A stretch of 36,144 bases of DNA. Source: Sebaldella sp. S0638 (GTDB taxonomy: Bacteria; Fusobacteriota; Fusobacteriia; Fusobacteriales; Leptotrichiaceae). Below are positions 8,250 to 25,711 of the stretch, piece after piece. The position numbers and the translations under genes are program-made. The notes beneath the pieces were generated by a model. The model was not told the origin of the DNA and did no database searches. It saw nothing but the letters and a program-made list of their open reading frames with translations. The DNA lies in the NCBI RefSeq assembly GCF_024158605.1, contig NZ_JAMZGM010000036.1, forward strand, positions 1 to 36,144. Reading direction: 5' to 3'. Position 1 is the first letter of the stretch, and every line of letters begins with the position of its first letter.

Positions 8250-8449
8250 TAAAAAATTTAATATTTTTGCCCTCTGGCGAATATTATTCCCAAACTCTTT
8301 CCAACTCTGCCTCTGGAACAATCATTCAAAATATTTTATAGAGCGATTATTACATCAACAACTTATTATAGCTGTATTTTCTTATTTATTCCATTTTCAT
8401 ATTTTTAAATCAACAAATGATATACTGAATATATTTTTATTATTTATAA
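8250..8449. other. Intergenic spacer between the efflux and trp operons
   Basis: This AT-rich stretch lies between the divergent efflux and trp promoters. I see no open frame with a ribosome site, no hairpin terminator and no repeat here beyond a short CCTCTGG duplication (near 8270 and 8311). Confidence 0.5.
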
Positions 8450-8485
8450 TTGATATTTGACTTTAGGGTGTAAATATAATAGAAT
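8450..8485 (+). promoter_or_regulatory. Promoter of the trp operon
   Basis: Two overlapping readings are possible: TTGACT (8457-8462) with 17 bp to TAGAAT (8480-8485), or TTGATA (8450-8455) with 19 bp to TATAAT (8475-8480). Either starts transcription around 8487-8493, some 25-30 nt before the leader-peptide ATG. No T-box or TRAP-type repeat follows. Confidence 0.7.
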
Positions 8486-8517
8486 TCAAGAAAATAAGAA
8501 AACAAAAGGAGAGAATT

Positions 8518-8589
8518 ATGAAAAGAAATTTTTGGAGCTGGTGGAATAATATTTTACAATTAAATATTTTTTCTGCTTATACCAAATAA
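8518..8589 (+). CDS. trpL: trp operon leader peptide (23 aa, three Trp codons)
   Basis: ATG at 8518 follows an AAAGGAGAG ribosome site by a normal spacing. The peptide reads MKRNFWSWWNNILQ and then nine more residues, with tandem Trp codons at 8533-8535, 8539-8541 and 8542-8544. Trp is the rarest amino acid, so three in four positions just upstream of the trp genes is the signature of ribosome-stalling attenuation. The stop codon (8587-8589) is followed within six bases by a strand (8595-8604) able to pair with the 5' arm of the terminator (8617-8626). A ribosome at the stop would cover that strand and permit termination; a ribosome stalled at the Trp codons would leave it free to antiterminate. 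The family-level mechanism is known from proteobacterial trp operons; its operation here is inferred. Confidence 0.88.
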   Translation: MKRNFWSWWNNILQLNIFSAYTK

Positions 8590-8594
8590 TTTTT

Positions 8595-8626
8595 GTGATT
8601 CTTTTATATTTATAGTAAAGAGATAT
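8595..8626 (+). promoter_or_regulatory. Possible trp antiterminator helix
   Basis: Bases 8595-8604 can pair with 8617-8626 through a core of TCTTT/AAAGA extended by G-T pairs, with one mismatch and a 12-nt loop. This competes with the 5' arm of the terminator at 8617-8654. The helix is weak and was found by eye. Confidence 0.45.
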
Positions 8627-8654
8627 TATCAAATTTGGTGATATCTCTTTTTTT
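8617..8654 (+). terminator. trp leader attenuator (terminator 1)
   Basis: A 15-bp stem (8617-8631 with 8636-8650, including two G-T pairs) closes a 4-nt AATT loop and runs into seven T residues (8648-8654). It lies 27 nt after the leader-peptide stop and upstream of trpE, where termination would keep the trp genes off. Confidence 0.88.
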
Positions 8655-8658
8655 ATAT

Positions 8659-8695
8659 AGAGTTTTTCGGTATCTGCGAAGGACTCTTTTTATTT
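8659..8695 (+). terminator. Second terminator-like hairpin before trpE
   Basis: AGAGTTTTTCG (8659-8669) pairs with CGAAGGACTCT (8677-8687) over 11 bp including two G-T pairs, with a 7-nt loop and a T-rich tail (8687-8695). It stands only a few bases after terminator 1 and about 20 bases before the trpE ribosome site GGAGG (8708-8712). Confidence 0.7.
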
Positions 8696-8717
8696 TATAA
8701 AAATTCGGAGGTTAACC

Positions 8718-9983
8718 ATGATTATAGATTTAGAATATAAAGCTGCCGACTGCTTTAATCTTATAAAAAACATATTTCAAAACAGTTATCTTGCAGAAGA
8801 TAACAGACAGGTAATTATAGGTATTGATGTTACTTATCTTGATTCGGAAAAATTTTCTTATGAAGATATACGCGGATTTATTAAGTCCCAAAAGGGCATT
8901 GCTGATTTTTCCGGACTGTTTGGCGTATTCTCATATGAAACTGTACATTATTTTGAGAAAATAATTAAAAATGATAATTCGGAATATTACTATCCAGACT
9001 TTGTATTTGCAGATGCCGGTGCATATCTTCACTTTAATAAGAAAAATTCAGTATTCAGCTTTTTCGGAGATAAAGAAAAATATTCAGATTTACTGCTTCG
9101 GTTAAAAGGAAAGATTGATACTGTAAAACCGCATAAGAACAGAGACTTTAAAATTATCAGTGATGAACAGAGAAAAAAGAAAATATTTCTTGAAAATGTC
9201 AGTAAAGCAAAAGAATATATCAAAAAAGGCGATATCTTTCAGGTAGTATTAAGCTCACAGATAGTTCTCGAATCAGACTTTGATCCTTATGACTTCTATA
9301 CTGAACTTGCAGAAAAAAATCCTTCACCTTATATGTTTTATTTTCCTTCGCCATACGGTACAGTTATCGGCTCAAGTCCGGAAATACTGTTAAAAATAGA
9401 AAACAGCCGGATTTTTATAGCGCCGATTGCAGGAACAAGACCCAGAGGAAAAGATACCGAAGAAGACAGATTTCTTGCAGATGATCTTCTGAATGATGAC
9501 AAGGAACTTGCAGAACACAGAATGCTTATTGACCTTGCACGAAACGACATAGGAAAATTCAGTATACCGGGTAGTGTCAGAGTGGAAAATCCAATGCATA
9601 TAGAATATTTTCAGCATGTTATGCATATTGTAAGTGATGTTTACGGTGAAATGAAGAAGGAAACTGACATTTTCGATGTTTTAACCACTGCATTTCCTGC
9701 GGGAACCCTAAGCGGAGCGCCAAAGATCAGGGCAATGGAAATAATATCAGAGCTGGAAAACAACAGACGCAATATCTACGGCGGCGGTACGGGCTTTCTG
9801 CATTATAACGGTGATTCCCAGATTGCCATTACTATAAGAACCGCATTTTATAAAGATAAGAGGTATTATATACAGTCAGGTGCAGGAATTGTCTATGATT
9901 CAGACCCTGAAAAAGAATACCGCGAAATACTTCACAAAAGAAAATCGCTGACTGGAATTTTTGAAAAGGAGGGAAATTTATGA
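8718..9983 (+). CDS. trpE: Anthranilate synthase component I (TrpE), short form
   Basis: TrpE converts chorismate to anthranilate using ammonia delivered by TrpG. The chorismate-binding domain is complete: PIAGTRPRGKD (PIAGT marks TrpE; PabB usually has PIKGT), LIDLARNDIG, PAGTLSGAPKIRAMEII, GGGTGFLHYNGD and a C-terminal SGAGIVYDSDPEKEY. At 421 aa it is clearly shorter than the roughly 460-520 aa of most TrpE proteins; the N-terminal domain is reduced. I do not see the LLES-type motif that contributes to the tryptophan feedback site, so feedback inhibition may be altered. The start is set by GGAGG at 8708. It overlaps trpG by four bases (ATGA). Confidence 0.94.
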   Translation: MIIDLEYKAADCFNLIKNIFQNSYLAEDNRQVIIGIDVTYLDSEKFSYEDIRGFIKSQKGIADFSGLFGVFSYETVHYFEKIIKNDNSEYYYPDFVFADAGAYLHFNKKNSVFSFFGDKEKYSDLLLRLKGKIDTVKPHKNRDFKIISDEQRKKKIFLENVSKAKEYIKKGDIFQVVLSSQIVLESDFDPYDFYTELAEKNPSPYMFYFPSPYGTVIGSSPEILLKIENSRIFIAPIAGTRPRGKDTEEDRFLADDLLNDDKELAEHRMLIDLARNDIGKFSIPGSVRVENPMHIEYFQHVMHIVSDVYGEMKKETDIFDVLTTAFPAGTLSGAPKIRAMEIISELENNRRNIYGGGTGFLHYNGDSQIAITIRTAFYKDKRYYIQSGAGIVYDSDPEKEYREILHKRKSLTGIFEKEGNL

Positions 9984-10573
9984 TTTTACTAATTGATAAC
10001 TATGATTCTTTTGTTTTCAACGTAAAACAGTACATTGAGGATATCAGCGGAAAAAGTGTCTATACTGTAAGAAACGACAGTATTACCATAAAAGATATCA
10101 GAGAACTAAAGCCTTCGGGAATTATTCTGTCTCCCGGACCAAAACACCCTTCTGACAGCAATATATGTCTTGATATTCTGAAAAACATTTCAGATATTCC
10201 CGTTCTGGGTATTTGTCTCGGACATCAGGCTGTGGGATATTCGCTTTCAGGCGAGATAAACTGTCTTGATATCCCTGTTCACGGCAAAACCAGCAATATT
10301 AATATTATAAAGAAAGAAAAATTATTTGATAATATACCTGAAAGTTTTTCTGTTATGCGGTATCACTCACTGTATATCTCTGAAAACAACTTTCCCGAAG
10401 AATTGGAAATACTTGCCAAAACAGATGACGGCATAATAATGGCAGTAAAACATAAAACAAAAGAAATATACGGTGTTCAGTTTCATCCGGAATCATATTT
10501 TACAGATTACGGGAAGGAAATTCTGAAAAACTTTATTTCAATATCATATAATCAGGAGGAAAATTTATGCTAA
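9980..10573 (+). CDS. trpG: Anthranilate synthase component II, glutamine amidotransferase
   Basis: This 197-aa class I glutamine amidotransferase hydrolyses glutamine and channels ammonia to TrpE. The nucleophile is C79 in GICLGHQ, and the catalytic His and Glu are H169 and E171 in GVQFHPES. The N-terminal LIDNYDSF and the SPGPKHP oxyanion strand are present. The same subunit can serve PabB in folate synthesis in many bacteria; no pabB is visible here. ATG overlaps the trpE stop, and its own end contains the ribosome site of trpD, so the three are coupled. Confidence 0.95.
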   Translation: MILLIDNYDSFVFNVKQYIEDISGKSVYTVRNDSITIKDIRELKPSGIILSPGPKHPSDSNICLDILKNISDIPVLGICLGHQAVGYSLSGEINCLDIPVHGKTSNINIIKKEKLFDNIPESFSVMRYHSLYISENNFPEELEILAKTDDGIIMAVKHKTKEIYGVQFHPESYFTDYGKEILKNFISISYNQEENLC

Positions 10574-11586
10574 GAAAATATATTATAAAACTACAGGATA
10601 AAGAAAGTCTTTCAAATACAGATTTTGAAGAAATAGTAAAAATCATCGCTGATAAGTCTTATGATAAAAACCAGCTCAGCGCGCTTCTTGTTCTTATATC
10701 TGAGGAAAGTCTTACACCGGAAGGATTGGCCGCCTTTGTAAAAAACATTTTAAAATACAGTTCTACATTTGAAGATACAGGAGCTATGATTGATGTGTGC
10801 GGAACAGGAGGAGACGGATTCAAAACTATTAATATCTCCACAGCAACAGCATTTATCTGCGGCGCTCTCGGTGTGACAGTGGCGAAGCACGGCAACAGAG
10901 CTGTTTCCAGCAGAAGCGGCAGCAGTGACATTCTGGATATTCTGAATGTGCCATTGGAAAGCTCTATTGACAGACAGCAGCATATCCTAAAAAATCAAAA
11001 TCTATCTTTCTTTCATGCGCCATATTTCCACAAACTTGTGGGAGAAGTAAAAACGCTCCGTGAAAAACTCGGAGTAAGAACAGTTTTCAATATTTTAGGG
11101 CCGCTTCTTCACCCAAATTTACACTTGAAATATCAGCTTGTAGGCATCTATCACAAACCTGTCCAGAGCCTTTATGCCGAAACACTCCGGCATCTGGGAA
11201 GAGAACATGCGCTTATTGTAAGGGGAAATGACGGGCTTGATGAAATATCCATAACTGCTGACACCAAGATCATAGAAGTAAAACAGGATAAAATAAAAGA
11301 ATTTTATATTTCACCTGAAGAATACGGCTTCAAAAGAACAGCCCACAGTGAAATTACCGGAGGAAATCCTGAGGAAAATGCCGAAATTCTTATTAATATA
11401 CTAAACGGCAGAGAAAAAGGGGCTAAAAGGGATATTGTCGTTCTGAACTCTATGTTTGCAGTCTATACATCAGACTTCTGCGATTCTCCTGAAAAAGCAA
11501 AGACAATAATAGAAAACGCTCTGAACAGCGGTCATATTTATGATTATTTCAGAAACTACATTAATTTTTTAAAGGAGGTAAGCTAA
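10567..11586 (+). CDS. trpD: Anthranilate phosphoribosyltransferase
   Basis: TrpD transfers phosphoribose from PRPP to anthranilate. The 339-aa protein has the family length and its signature: CGTGGDGFKTINIST (about 79-93) for PRPP, then KHGNRAVSSRSGSSDILD (about 106-123) for phosphate and anthranilate, and later the conserved LGPLLHP. It is a stand-alone TrpD rather than a TrpG-TrpD fusion. The start overlaps trpG by seven bases and uses GGAGG inside trpG. It ends TAATG with trpC, a one-base overlap. Confidence 0.96.
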   Translation: MLRKYIIKLQDKESLSNTDFEEIVKIIADKSYDKNQLSALLVLISEESLTPEGLAAFVKNILKYSSTFEDTGAMIDVCGTGGDGFKTINISTATAFICGALGVTVAKHGNRAVSSRSGSSDILDILNVPLESSIDRQQHILKNQNLSFFHAPYFHKLVGEVKTLREKLGVRTVFNILGPLLHPNLHLKYQLVGIYHKPVQSLYAETLRHLGREHALIVRGNDGLDEISITADTKIIEVKQDKIKEFYISPEEYGFKRTAHSEITGGNPEENAEILINILNGREKGAKRDIVVLNSMFAVYTSDFCDSPEKAKTIIENALNSGHIYDYFRNYINFLKEVS

Positions 11587-12314
11587 TGTCTAATATACTG
11601 CAAAAAATCAAACTGGAAAGGGAAAAACAACTTTCCGATGAAAAAAATCTTCTTTCAAAACCCTCACTTATAAAGGCTTTGAAAAAGGAAGGAATTCAGA
11701 TAATCGGTGAGATAAAAAGAGCTTCTCCATCCAAAGGAAAAATTGCCGAAAATACTTTTGACATTGAAAAACAGCTTGATTATTATGTAAAAAATAATAT
11801 TGCAGCTTTTTCCATCCTTACAGAAAACCATTTTTTCAAAGGAAAGAATGAAGACCTTAGTTTTGCCAGAGAACTTTATCCCGAAATCCCTATACTGCGT
11901 AAAGATTTTATTTTTGATCCGTTTCAGGTAGCACAGGCAAAATTTATCGGGGCAAGTGCAGTTCTCCTTATAGTAAAAATGCTTTCAGATACTGAATTGA
12001 AAAAGCTTCATAAACTCGCACTTGATCTGGAACTGGAAGTTCTTGTAGAAATACATAACGAAGAAGATTTGGAAAGAGCTTTGAAAATCCCTGATATTGC
12101 TCTTTTGGGAATTAACAACAGAAATCTCGACACTTTTGAAACTTCACTTTCTGTTACAGAAAAATTTTTTCCAAAAATTCCCGCTGACAGAAATATTACT
12201 ATTATAAGTGAAAGCGGTATACATACTCATGAAGACTTAAAATTCGTGGAATCTATCGGTGTTTCCGGGGTTCTTATAGGCGAATCCCTTATGAAAGGCG
12301 GTCTTTTAGCATAA
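11586..12314 (+). CDS. trpC: Indole-3-glycerol phosphate synthase
   Basis: The 242-aa TIM-barrel enzyme closes the ring of carboxyphenylaminodeoxyribulose phosphate. Visible signatures are EIKRASPSKG (catalytic Lys, phosphate site), LTENHFFKG, LRKDFIFDPFQ, GINNRNLDTF and SESGIHTHEDL with the terminal GVLIGESLM. It is somewhat shorter than E. coli TrpC because it is not fused to TrpF, which is a separate gene next door. Ribosome site AAAGGAGG precedes the ATG within trpD. Confidence 0.95.
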   Translation: MSNILQKIKLEREKQLSDEKNLLSKPSLIKALKKEGIQIIGEIKRASPSKGKIAENTFDIEKQLDYYVKNNIAAFSILTENHFFKGKNEDLSFARELYPEIPILRKDFIFDPFQVAQAKFIGASAVLLIVKMLSDTELKKLHKLALDLELEVLVEIHNEEDLERALKIPDIALLGINNRNLDTFETSLSVTEKFFPKIPADRNITIISESGIHTHEDLKFVESIGVSGVLIGESLMKGGLLA

Positions 12315-12347
12315 AAATAGAAAAATAAAGCAATGGAAAGGAAAACT

Positions 12348-12956
12348 ATGAGCAAACTAAAAATATGCGGAATCAGGTCTATAGAAGAGATATTGGAACT
12401 TGCAGAACTGGACATTGATTATTTCGGCTGTATTTTTGCCAACAGCCCAAGACAGGTTTCTGTGGAACTTGCTAAAAAAATAACTGAAACCGCTCATAAA
12501 TATAATAAAAAAACAGTAGGTGTTTTCGTAAATTCTTCAGCAGATGAAATAAGGGAAATAAGAAGTGTCGTAAAGCTCGATGTTATCCAGCTTCACGGCG
12601 ACGAAACCCCGGAATTCTGCAAAAAACTCGGCGGAACTATCTGGAAAGTATTCAGAGTTTTTGATGAAATACCTGATATCACACCTTACAGAGACTATAT
12701 TGAATATGCACTATTTGATACCAAAGGTAAAGATTACGGCGGAAACGGAATTATTTTTGACTGGAGTATACTTAAAAATCTCGATTTTCCATATGTTCTC
12801 GCTGGTGGTCTGTCAAAAGAAAATATAAAAAATGCCCTGAAATATAATCCGGCAGTTCTGGATATCAACAGCAAAGCAGAGATCAATAACAGAAAAGATA
12901 AAAACCTTATATTAGATATAATAGATATTGTTAAACAAGAAAGGAATGAAATATGA
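12348..12956 (+). CDS. trpF: Phosphoribosylanthranilate isomerase
   Basis: TrpF is a 202-aa TIM barrel that isomerises phosphoribosylanthranilate. The start at 12348 ([11 protein letters not shown]) is chosen over an in-frame ATG at 12333 because AAGGA sits five bases before it and family members begin right at the KICGI strand, whose Cys is catalytic. Other motifs: [20 protein letters not shown] (general acid Asp and loop) and [11 protein letters not shown]. The usual DVSSGVE phosphate loop reads DINSKAE, a mild departure. The 33-bp gap after trpC is the largest in the operon. It overlaps trpB by ATGA. Confidence 0.93.
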
Positions 12957-14134
12957 ATAAAAAATCTTATTATGGTGATTTTGGCGGACAGTTTGTTCCC
13001 GAAACTATTATGAATGCACTTATAGAACTGGAAAAAGAATATGAGAAAACCATTGATGACAAGGAGTTCAGAGATGAATTCCAGAGCCTTCTAAAAGACT
13101 TTGTGGGACGGGAAACACCTTTATACCATGCAAAAAATTTAAGCAGACATTACGGGCATAATATATTTTTGAAAAGAGAGGATCTGAATCATACAGGAGC
13201 CCATAAAATAAACAATGCACTTGGTCAGGCACTGCTTGCACAAAAAATGGGAAAAAAGAAAATAATCGCCGAAACAGGTGCAGGACAGCACGGAGTTGCC
13301 ACAGCTACAGCTGCCGCTCTTCTGGGCATGGAATGTGACGTTTATATGGGAGCTGTTGATATAGAGAGACAGAAATTAAATGTTTTCCGTATGGAACTGC
13401 TTGGTGCTAAAGTTATTTCCGTGGAAGAAGGGCTGAAAACATTAAAAGAAGCTACTACTGCTGCTATTCAGGCATGGGTTAACGAAGTGGAGAATGTGTT
13501 TTATGTCATAGGTTCAGTGGTAGGCCCTTATCCGTATCCGGAAATGGTAAAAGACTTTCAGTCTGTTATTGGTGATGAAACAAAAAAACAGATGGAAAAA
13601 TACGGGAATACAGACTGTATTATTGCCTGTGTCGGCGGCGGCAGCAATGCCATGGGAATTTTTTCAGCTTTTCTTGACGACAAAGATACCGCATTATATG
13701 GAATTGAAGCAGGAGGAAAAGGTATTGATACAGATGAACACGCCGCTACTCTCACAATGGGAAGTCCGGGAATACTTCACGGAATGAAGACTTATGTACT
13801 TCAGGACAAATACGGCCGTATAAATCCCGTTCATTCCATATCAGCGGGACTTGATTATCCCGGAGTCGGTCCGGAACACTCTTTTCTTTTTGATACAAAG
13901 AGAGTTACATATGCAGCTGTTACTGATAACGAAGCTATGGAAGCATTGCTGCTGCTTACGCAGAAAGAAGGAATAATTCCTGCTATAGAAAGTGCACATG
14001 CTGTGGCTTACCTTGAAAAGCTCTGCCCTGTTCTTGAAGGAAAGAAAAATATTGTTGTAAATATCTCAGGACGTGGTGACAAAGATATGCATACGGTATT
14101 TTCTATATTAAAAGGAGGCGAAGTCCATGAATAA
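12953..14134 (+). CDS. trpB: Tryptophan synthase beta chain
   Basis: The 393-aa TrpB1-type subunit condenses indole with serine using PLP. It has [11 protein letters not shown] at the start and [20 protein letters not shown] with the PLP-binding Lys of HKINNA at about residue 84. The glycine-rich phosphate loop GGGSNAMG, the AETGAGQHG segment and the C-terminal ISGRGDKDM follow. Its length and the full tunnel-forming region indicate the version that partners TrpA rather than the stand-alone TrpB2. ATG overlaps the trpF stop. Confidence 0.97.
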
Positions 14135-14885
14135 ACTGGAAAATATTTTTAAAGAGAAAAAAAATGTCAATATCGGATATATAGTAGGCGGTTTCCCGGA
14201 TATAAACTATACCAGAGAATTTCTTCTGAATCTGGAAAAATCACCAATTGATATATTGGAAATAGGTATTCCCTATTCTGATCCTATTGCCGACGGAAAA
14301 ATTATTTCTGAAGCTTCTTTTACTGCCGCACAGAATAATGTTACTCCTGACACTGTCTTTGATCTTTTGACTGCTGAAAAGGAAAAGATTAATACACCCC
14401 TTGTGTTTTTAATATATTACAATCTTATTTTTGCCTATGGAATTGATAACTTTATAAAAAAATCCGCCGAAGCTGGAATAACCGGACTTATAATTCCTGA
14501 CCTGCCTTATGAAGAAGCGCAGGAACTTATTGATAAACTAAATAAAAACAATATTGCCTTTATTCCTCTTGTAAGCGTTACCTCGAAAGACCGTATTCCA
14601 AAGCTGGTTTCACAGGGGAGCGGTTTTATATATGCCATTGCCTCACTTGGAGTTACGGGAACAAAACAGGTTTCCCCTGACAGGCTCACAGATTTTATAA
14701 ATGAAATAAAAGAACATACAGAACTTCCTGTAGCTATAGGCTTTGGAATAAAAAACAGAGAAGATATAAAAAAGCTGCGGGATTCTGCAGATGGATTAAT
14801 TGTAGGAACTTCCATAGTAAAATTAACAAAAAATCATAATCCTGATGAAATTCTTCCTGAATTACAGGAATTATTTACAGTATAA
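14127..14885 (+). CDS. trpA: Tryptophan synthase alpha chain
   Basis: The 252-aa TIM barrel cleaves indole-3-glycerol phosphate and passes indole to TrpB. The catalytic Glu and Asp are in [13 protein letters not shown] (about 46-58). [24 protein letters not shown] and [11 protein letters not shown] (phosphate site) follow. The ATG overlaps the end of trpB by eight bases, with GGAGG upstream inside trpB. It is the last trp gene and is followed by a strong hairpin terminator. Confidence 0.96.
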
Positions 14886-24580: not shown

Positions 24581-24590
24581 AGGATTATAC

Positions 24591-24704
24591 TCTTCGGGGC
24601 AGGGTGCGATTCCCTACCGGCGGTAAAGTCCGCAAGCTTATTTTTTTATAAGCACGAACCGGTTAAATTCCGGTACCGACAGTTATAGTCTGGATGAAAG
24701 AAGA
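24591..24704 (+). ncRNA. FMN riboswitch (RFN element)
   Basis: The conserved RFN landmarks are present in order: TCTTCGGGGCAGGGTG at 24591-24606, the GATTCCCTACCGGCGGTAAAG helix region, AAGTCCGC, a variable stem, CGAACCGG, AATTCCGGTACCGACAG and GTCTGGATGAAAGAAGA. P1 closes TCTTC (24591-24595) with GAAGA (24700-24704). It binds FMN and controls the downstream transporter by transcription termination. Confidence 0.96.
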
Positions 24705-24747
24705 TTTTATGCTGCTTTCTTTCATTGCTTGATGAAAGTTTTTTTAT
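24694..24747 (+). terminator. Expression platform of the FMN riboswitch
   Basis: CTTTCAT (24719-24725) pairs with ATGAAAG (24732-24738) and runs into a T tract from 24739: the terminator. The same CTTTCAT can instead pair with ATGAAAG at 24694-24700, in the 3' strand of P1. FMN binding holds P1 and leaves the terminator free to form; without FMN the alternative pairing should antiterminate. Confidence 0.85.
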
Positions 24748-24766
24748 TTTGGGAGGACTTCATATT

Positions 24767-25711
24767 ATGGATAAGAAATTCAGGTTTTTCAGCAATATCC
24801 TTATAATTATTGCAGCAGCTATGTGGGGAATAGACGGCGTTCTTCTTACTCCGTCATATTTTTCGGTATTTCACTTTTATAACGTGGAATTTATTGTATT
24901 TGTGGCACATTTTATTCCTTTTATATTTTTAAGTATCTTTATGTTTAAAAAGTATAAATATTTAAAGGTGTTTACATTAAGTGATCTGACTTACTTTTTT
25001 CTGATTGCTCTTTTCGGAGGAGTTATCGGTACGCTTTCTATGGTAAAAGCACTGCAGCTGAGCGAGTTCAGCCAGTACAGTGTTGTCATTCTTCTTCAGA
25101 AATTACAGCCTGTTTTTGCTATTCTGCTTGCAGCTGTATTACTAAAAGAAAAGCCCGGGAAAAAGTTTTACCTTTTGGCTTTAGTAGCGGTATGTTCCAG
25201 CTATGTTCTGGCTTTTGGCTTTAAGAGCCCTTCACTTCTGGAAAAGAATAATGTACAGGCATGTTTATACTCTGTCCTTGCTGCTTTTTCTTTTGGAAGC
25301 GGTACTGTATTCGGAAGAAAAGTTCTGAATAAATATGATTTTTCCACAAGTACTTTTTACAGATTTACATTTACAGCACTGATTATGTTTGTAATACTTC
25401 TGTTCAAAAAAGATCTTGGTACTGTATATGCATTCACTGCAAATAAAAACATGGTTATTCTTGCTTTATTCATTGCATTTTTTGGTCTTTTGGCAATATT
25501 TATATACTATTTAGGGCTGAAAGGAACTTCTGCATCTGTGGCTACTCTTTGTGAGCTTGCTTTTCCGCTGACTTCAGTGGCGCTGGAAGGCATACTCAGA
25601 CACAGGATTCTCAGCCCGGTTCAGATTATTGCCGCTTTGATTCTTATTTCTTCGATTTTATATCTGAATTTTTCTAATATTAATTCCGAGGAAAAATTTG
25701 AAAAAAGCTGA
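24767..25711 (+). CDS. impX: DMT/EamA-family riboflavin transporter (ImpX-like)
   Basis: The 314-aa membrane protein has about ten TM helices in two EamA-like halves (about 5-145 and 155-305), including FSNILIIIAAAMWGIDGVLL at the start and an ending ALILISSILYLNFSNI. Start 24767 has GGGAGG ten bases upstream; a longer frame from 24725 begins inside the terminator hairpin and is unlikely. The FMN riboswitch upstream makes uptake of riboflavin or a flavin the most probable role, like ImpX of Fusobacterium nucleatum. That name is by context and recalled family resemblance. No riboflavin biosynthesis genes are in the window. Confidence 0.88.
   Translation: MDKKFRFFSNILIIIAAAMWGIDGVLLTPSYFSVFHFYNVEFIVFVAHFIPFIFLSIFMFKKYKYLKVFTLSDLTYFFLIALFGGVIGTLSMVKALQLSEFSQYSVVILLQKLQPVFAILLAAVLLKEKPGKKFYLLALVAVCSSYVLAFGFKSPSLLEKNNVQACLYSVLAAFSFGSGTVFGRKVLNKYDFSTSTFYRFTFTALIMFVILLFKKDLGTVYAFTANKNMVILALFIAFFGLLAIFIYYLGLKGTSASVATLCELAFPLTSVALEGILRHRILSPVQIIAALILISSILYLNFSNINSEEKFEKS

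Follow-up and report, generated by a model that had tools for sequence, protein, structure and literature searches.

A candidate leader-peptide attenuator with two tandem terminators upstream of the trp operon of Sebaldella sp. S0638

Architecture of the trp leader

In the E. coli trpL-type attenuator, a leader peptide with neighbouring Trp codons, a 1:2 hairpin, an antiterminator and a terminator lie before trpE. The trp locus of Sebaldella sp. S0638 raises the question of whether a leader of this kind also governs tryptophan synthesis in Fusobacteriota, and whether a single leader peptide can there answer for two terminators. The locus lies in a stretch of 36,144 nucleotides (the window), which is contig 36 of a 4.27-Mb genome and carries a complete trp operon in the order trpEGDCFBA, with starts at 8718 (trpE), 9980 (trpG), 10567 (trpD), 11586 (trpC), 12333 (trpF), 12953 (trpB) and 14127 (trpA). 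In NCBIfam, trpG, trpD, trpB and trpA exceed a curated cut-off, while trpC and trpF are best matches below cut-off. Elsewhere in the window, a serine recombinase at 154-1838 (best models CcrB and XisF, below cut-off) adjoins three tRNA genes, together perhaps the end of an integrated element, and an FMN riboswitch at 24586-24709 (109 bits) lies directly 5′ of an ORF at 24725-25711. The features of the leader and operon are as follows.

8457..8485, + strand: promoter-like site TTGACT-17-TAGAAT, from a consensus scan only (10/12)
8507..8513, + strand: Shine-Dalgarno sequence AGGAGAG of the leader ORF (core AGGAG, 8507-8511), from the sequence
8518..8589, + strand: leader peptide ORF MKRNFWSWWNNILQLNIFSAYTK, 23 codons with an ATG start, from ORF reading, relatives and a shuffle test
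8533..8544, + strand: Trp codons 6, 8 and 9, forming region 1 (8533-8535, 8539-8541, 8542-8544), from the sequence and the 1:2 helix of the minimum free energy (MFE) fold
8571..8605, + strand: region 2, the putative switch strand, comprising 8581-8587 (ACCAAAU) and 8593-8605, from folding and complementarity statistics in 19 leaders
8617..8650, + strand: terminator 1 (T1), a 15-bp hairpin then a U tract, from sequence and folding
8633..8639, + strand: AUUUGGU in the T1 loop and 3′ arm, predicted partner of 8581-8587, from folding
8659..8687, + strand: terminator 2 (T2), an 11-bp hairpin then a U tract, from a hairpin-plus-U-tract finder
8660..8673, + strand: T2 5′ arm and loop GAGUUUUUCGGUAU, predicted partner of 8579-8593 in antiterminator 2, from the MFE fold
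8718..9983, + strand: trpE, from anthranilate synthase component I models (best 4.9e-124, below curated cut-offs) and Chorismate_bind (8.7e-90)
9980..14885, + strand: trpG, trpD, trpC, trpF, trpB and trpA, from NCBIfam matches

An earlier note on this DNA had described a Shine-Dalgarno-preceded ORF of 23 codons with three Trp codons in four positions, and this ORF is indeed present at 8518-8589. On both strands of the window it is the sole such ORF of 8-45 codons with at least three Trp codons in four, and comparable ORFs occurred at a mean of 0.02 per dinucleotide shuffle of the window, with 2 of 100 shuffles having any. The strong terminator placed by the same note before trpE corresponds to T1, and the leader RNA from 8500 to 8655 folds with a z-score of -5.8. 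The extent given there, 8518..8654, encloses the ORF and T1 and is too short, as the element reaches further and T2 at 8659-8687 was missed. Upstream, the consensus scan for promoters is weak alone (five promoter-like sites in the region, compared with 5.2 in shuffles), and the same TTGACT-17-TAGAAT stands at the equivalent place in a leader of the same genus (L003).

Trp-rich leaders across Fusobacteriota and beyond

Searching 98 Fusobacteriota genomes for TrpE (E up to 1e-40) returned 64 places in 47 genomes, from which 37 TrpE-type places were taken at E ≤2e-74, a cut chosen after inspection of the table. Families were labelled f1, taken as Leptotrichiaceae (the family of Sebaldella), and f4, taken as Fusobacteriaceae. 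Conservation in relatives had been named earlier as a check on the reading, and a Trp-rich short ORF was found upstream of 32 of the 37 TrpE-type genes: 19/19 in the organism's own family, 13/16 in f4 and 0/2 in two further families. Within the 19, one trpE is broken and one genome (G004) has an ABC substrate-binding gene between leader and trpE. The five TrpE-type loci lacking such a leader are in G034 (f3), G033 (f2) and the f4 genomes G076, G054 and G093, with only ~175 nt of upstream sequence on the contig in G054. Of the 27 weaker TrpE rows, which are PabB-like or second copies, 11 were inspected (L026-L031, L045-L049), and none of these 11 had a credible Trp-rich leader. Across relatives, the leader peptides have a basic start followed by a retained TW-x-WW, WWW or WW motif.

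Two side observations concern a Leptotrichia-like genus (g3). In L020 (G005), the Trp-rich leader and both terminators are intact, and trpE appears as two pieces, one with internal stops. Between attenuator and trpE in G032 (L050:2840-3700), and at the same place in G022, there are about 850 nt without an ORF longer than 200 aa; pieces of this spacer gave 49-110 matches per genome in the four genomes searched, in modular blocks, and the spacer resembles a large family of mosaic intergenic repeats.

Similar leaders occur before genes for TrpX-like proteins (PF04392), which have places in at least 73 of the 98 genomes. Thirty of these loci were fetched, nine of which have a Trp-rich leader upstream, all in f4. 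A contig scan, covering the 77 of 79 loci with enough upstream sequence, found a Trp-rich ORF in nine, against one in the antisense control. Seven of these nine are plausible (four Fusobacteriaceae, one Leptotrichiaceae and two clostridial metagenome-assembled genomes (MAGs), Clostridiales/Eubacteriales), and those of L143 and L154 are probably chance. The two clostridial MAGs (L087, L089) carry a Trp leader MNWRWQMN...GQVRLFAV and tandem terminators before a TrpX relative. Most Firmicutes TrpX relatives examined have no Trp-rich leader. A wide clostridial version was sought and rejected: a 17-base pattern from the clostridial leader matched in 9 of 391 genomes of the class, where only the query's own leader was real and the other eight matches lay in or beside unrelated coding sequence, outside any arrangement of Shine-Dalgarno sequence, terminator and transporter. 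Rfam models on 20 Firmicutes TrpX-relative loci found one T-box upstream of the gene (L091), SAM riboswitches 3′ of the gene and two group II intron pieces far upstream in L095.

Together these loci gave 47 leaders, which come partly from near-identical genomes and which, because they were chosen by their Trp codons, are not usable as evidence for the Trp-rich ORF itself. An SD-like stretch lies within 20 nt 5′ of the start used in 45 of the 47, and in L087 and L089 it precedes a start further upstream. Two terminators 3′ of the ORF were called by the hairpin-plus-U-tract finder in 36/47 leaders: 18/19 in f1, 9/13 before f4 trpE, 7/13 before f4 trpX and 2/2 in the clostridial MAGs. By reading, the finder had merged the two hairpins of L057, and the T1 U tract of L005 is poor; a single terminator is present in L033, L036, L038, L039 and five L068-type leaders.

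Complementarity and folding of the leader and its terminators

For the pairing statistics, 19 of the 47 leaders were hand-picked so as to exclude close relatives and any leader that lacked two usable terminators. In-silico hybridisation then matched each terminator arm against the stretch running from the last Trp codon up to T1. The 5′ arms of both terminators are complementary to their leaders beyond dinucleotide shuffles (Fisher p = 0.008 for T1 and 1.5e-6 for T2; median p per leader 0.29 and 0.09, respectively), although these combined p-values are inflated because the leaders are related. The 3′ arms show no such complementarity in the same 19 leaders (p = 0.44 and 0.37). When arms were swapped between genera, a leader's own 5′ arms beat those of other genera (p = 0.002 for T1, 0.0005 for T2), while own 3′ arms gave no excess (p = 0.74 and 0.54). 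In only 8/19 leaders do the best footprints of the two terminators share at least 4 nt of the leader.

Folding of the same leaders points in the same direction. With the ribosome modelled as stalled, the mean probability that the T1 and T2 arms are paired to the leader is 0.75 and 0.55, compared with 0.23 and 0.20 with the ribosome at the stop codon and 0.52 and 0.32 when the leader is shuffled, and the excess of stalled over shuffled is significant for both terminators (Wilcoxon p = 9.5e-6 for T1, 3.2e-4 for T2). This effect is not one of length, because the untranslated RNA, which is longer, gives means of 0.29 and 0.17. Varying the ribosome footprint from 12 to 18 nt and the decision point among three positions left the order of the means unchanged. 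The T1 arm is mostly paired to the leader in 18/19 leaders at the T1 decision point; at the T2 decision point the MFE fold of 15/19, the window included, keeps T1 intact within a helix between leader and T2. Both counts were made without a shuffle control. Stalled T2 pairing is low in the ensembles of L006 (0.26), L034 (0.11), L041 (0.30), L063 (0.13) and L087 (0.05); in L006, L041 and L087 the MFE fold nevertheless shows T2-leader pairing, so that MFE and ensemble disagree.

In the window, folding gives region 2 three alternative partners, namely region 1 with the SD region, T1, or T2. In the resting MFE fold, 8581-8587 is paired with the region of the first Trp codon. The antiterminator at T1 joins 8581-8587 to 8633-8639 and 8593-8605 to the T1 5′ arm, and amounts to -10.7 or -10.0 kcal/mol with the RNA upstream of 8548 or 8558 omitted, mimicking a stalled ribosome, and the 3′ end at 8640; with everything before 8602 omitted and the same 3′ end, only -1.1 kcal/mol is left. 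Thus the pairing of 8595-8604 with the T1 5′ arm, proposed in the earlier note, does appear in the folds with region 2 unoccupied, where it contributes to a more extensive antiterminator. That note had also called the antiterminator weak: it is stronger once the stop-codon region at 8581-8587 is included, and in the window alone it stays below significance. When the transcript is ended at 8675 or 8680, 8579-8593 is paired with the T2 5′ arm and loop in the best fold, and this helix encloses a formed T1. The T1 antiterminator is absent from the MFE fold once the 3′ end reaches 8645, where T1 wins, and antiterminator 2 is gone by 8687, where T2 wins; therefore, antitermination would have to act by timing.

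Mutually exclusive 1:2, 2:3 and 3:4 pairings are thus present in the window folds and in the set-wide folding, while the window alone is not significant. Its probability of T2-leader pairing is 0.68 stalled, 0.29 at the stop codon and 0.46 untranslated, the last still reaching 0.60 at the earliest decision point. Against shuffled leaders, the window's own folding tests give p = 0.18 for T1 and 0.066 for T2, and the complementarity of its T1 5′ arm to the leader gives p = 0.45, none of them significant.

The registers of these pairings differ between genera. A single antiterminator helix conserved across the family was looked for and not found, because the GGUG element of T1 lies in the 3′ arm in Sebaldella and in the 5′ arm in Leptotrichia, and registers drift between genera. 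When 15 family leaders are folded jointly with RNAalifold, the consensus pairs GGUGG, which belongs to the final two Trp codons, and compensatory changes are few (2/7 consensus pairs, covariation term -0.44); one compensatory case is CACCGG/UCGGUG in L016 versus CACCAG/UUGGUG in L005. The Leptotrichia strand UUUUGCC is complementary to both T1 UUGGUGAAA and T2 GGUAAAA. Many Fusobacteriaceae leaders end in CAGGT(T), frequently encoding (N/D/G)QV, and carry (A/G)CCTG in the 5′ arm of T1 and in some cases in that of T2 as well. Four Fusobacteriaceae trpX leaders (L067, L069, L072, L081) have two CAGGT copies in their C-terminal codons, apparently one per terminator to judge from the sequences; in L067, one copy fits T1 and the other, as AGACAGG, fits T2 CCTGTCT. 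The mean leader MFE z-score is -4.05 in nine family leaders and -1.99 in ten others. Occlusion of the Shine-Dalgarno sequence by the 1:2 rod was considered as a special feature and rejected, since it is seen in the MFE fold but is matched by shuffles (0.66 versus 0.66 shuffled in the nine family leaders, 0.61 versus 0.57 in the ten others).

Mechanism, rival readings and known systems

The ORF with its Trp codons, the terminator, the trp operon downstream and the conservation of the Trp-rich ORF all argue, at the level of sequence, for the leader-peptide trp attenuator that the earlier note had proposed, and the element is very probably a ribosome-mediated transcription attenuator of trpEGDCFBA that senses charged tRNA-Trp through the Trp-rich leader peptide and acts on two tandem terminators. 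We infer the switching in cells and the ribosome positions as follows. With enough tryptophan, the ribosome would reach the stop codon (8587-8589) and cover most of region 2 (8581-8605), so that T1 forms and transcription ends, and polymerases past T1 would meet T2. In the absence of translation, the 1:2 hairpin with the Trp-codon region would hold region 2, and both T1 and T2 would form. During tryptophan starvation, the ribosome would stall on codons 6-9, leaving region 2 free to bind the 5′ arm and loop of T1 while the 3′ arm of that hairpin is still incomplete. Once the polymerase has passed T1, T1 would re-form and release region 2, which could then pair with the T2 5′ arm and loop and allow the polymerase to reach trpE. 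This last hand-over from T1 to T2, the relay step, is drawn from equilibrium folds of chosen 3′ ends, and we consider its chances evenly poised. In its widest form, the proposal is that a relay attenuator, in which one strand disarms both terminators with T1 nested, is ancestral to Fusobacteriota, governs both tryptophan synthesis and a TrpX-type importer, and accounts for the published "trpB motif", in its Fusobacteria branch if not more widely; this we advance tentatively, with its chances somewhat below even.

The reading that competes most directly places attenuation at T1 only and treats T2 as a plain second terminator, for back-up or insulation, with constant read-through and no antitermination by the leader. 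It is a real possibility, if one that falls short of an even chance. T1 alone suffices for a classic attenuator, as is generally known; 11/47 leaders lack two called terminators, stalled T2 pairing is low in 5/19, and only 8/19 have coinciding leader footprints for the two terminators. What speaks for an active T2 is that the T2 5′ arms are complementary to their own leaders beyond shuffled or other-genus arms while the 3′ arms are not, that T2-leader pairing differs between stalled leaders and those at the stop codon or untranslated, and that the nested MFE fold recurs in 15/19; moreover, an unregulated serial terminator would be expected to cap expression.

Two further readings would deny the ORF its role altogether. 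In the first, the short ORF is incidental and the leader is bound by a metabolite, as a riboswitch, or by a protein, along the lines suggested for the trpB motif; that strong riboswitch candidate, found in Firmicutes and Fusobacteria upstream of ABC transporters and occasionally of trpB, combines two hairpins with a terminator, according to the accessible portion of its description (PMC11109978). This reading seems improbable, given a Trp-rich ORF that recurs at 32/37 TrpE-type genes and 19/19 in the family with SD and start kept, and given that no Rfam family matches the leader at gathering score (8440-8720; with the limit relaxed to E 10, 11 matches appear, the best at E = 0.51). The Rfam Trp_leader family, which we take to be RF00513, likewise has no match in 8440-8720 at gathering score or at E up to 10. 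Control of trp by TRAP, T-box or TrpR, with the leader a relic, is very improbable, and as controls of the trp operon all three were searched for and found unsupported. The genome does have one T-box-like element and a weak, partial TrpR-like match; however, the TrpR match covers 30/88 positions and none lies above cut-off, the TRAP protein (PF02081) has no match in the genome, and the T-box (RF00230) is absent from the window at gathering score and from 8440-8720 at E up to 10. The T-box-like element (L161:1500-1800, contig 32 of the same genome; 74.7 bits, gathering 93), which is the genome's only T-box match at E up to 0.001, stands directly 5′ of an asparagine synthase B gene; so T-box control seems to exist in this organism, though not for trp.

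The attenuator reading is best placed by comparison with known leaders. The Sebaldella leader shares with the Proteobacterial trp attenuator of the E. coli trpL type the Trp-codon leader peptide, 1:2 hairpin, antiterminator, terminator and trpE. It differs in lying in another phylum, in its long AU-rich 1:2 rod, in an additional terminator that is itself complementary to the leader, and in the place of region 2, which is around or after the stop codon in the Leptotrichiaceae examined and inside the ORF (as CAGGT) in many Fusobacteriaceae leaders. Tandem terminators are also found in the rimP leader, which has antiterminator potential; unlike the Sebaldella leader it is gammaproteobacterial, and no amino-acid-rich leader peptide is described for it in the sections available (PMC2965389). 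Actinobacterial leader-peptide attenuators, on the available text, share with the Sebaldella leader the RNA-based attenuation of amino acid genes beyond the Proteobacteria and Firmicutes, and belong to another phylum (PMC1262725). In the parts of PMC2965389, PMC8632094 and PMC4833913 available to us, an element of the Sebaldella type is not described; the last cites a 2010 comparative paper on attenuation by Lopatovskaya and others. Our full-text literature search found no leader-peptide trp attenuation in Fusobacteriota; subscription journals fell mostly outside it and an earlier mention is possible. The new part is the second terminator, together with a likely relay.

The closest counterpart in the literature covered is the trpB motif (SRC-39-1; PMC11109978). 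As far as the accessible text goes, it occurs in Firmicutes and Fusobacteria before ABC transporter genes with homology to amino acid transporters, and sometimes before trpB; it has two hairpins, the second a terminator, with an antiterminator in the right shoulder of P1, and was published as a riboswitch candidate for which the authors allow a classic attenuator (PMC11109978). That text describes no leader peptide, unlike the Sebaldella leader, the two being compared by description only, and the Trp-rich leaders before TrpX-like genes fit its description, but such a leader is missing from most of the Firmicutes TrpX relatives examined. The Sebaldella element may be the Fusobacteria branch of this riboswitch candidate.

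If this reading holds, leader-peptide control of trp would extend to Fusobacteriota, and a testable solution would be offered for an orphan riboswitch candidate, the trpB motif. The leaders before TrpX-like genes suggest tryptophan import as the function of an uncharacterised ABC transporter family in Fusobacteriaceae. The locus may also serve as a simple example of one ribosome commanding two terminators in series: if the relay is true, the operon has two serial checkpoints on one tRNA signal.
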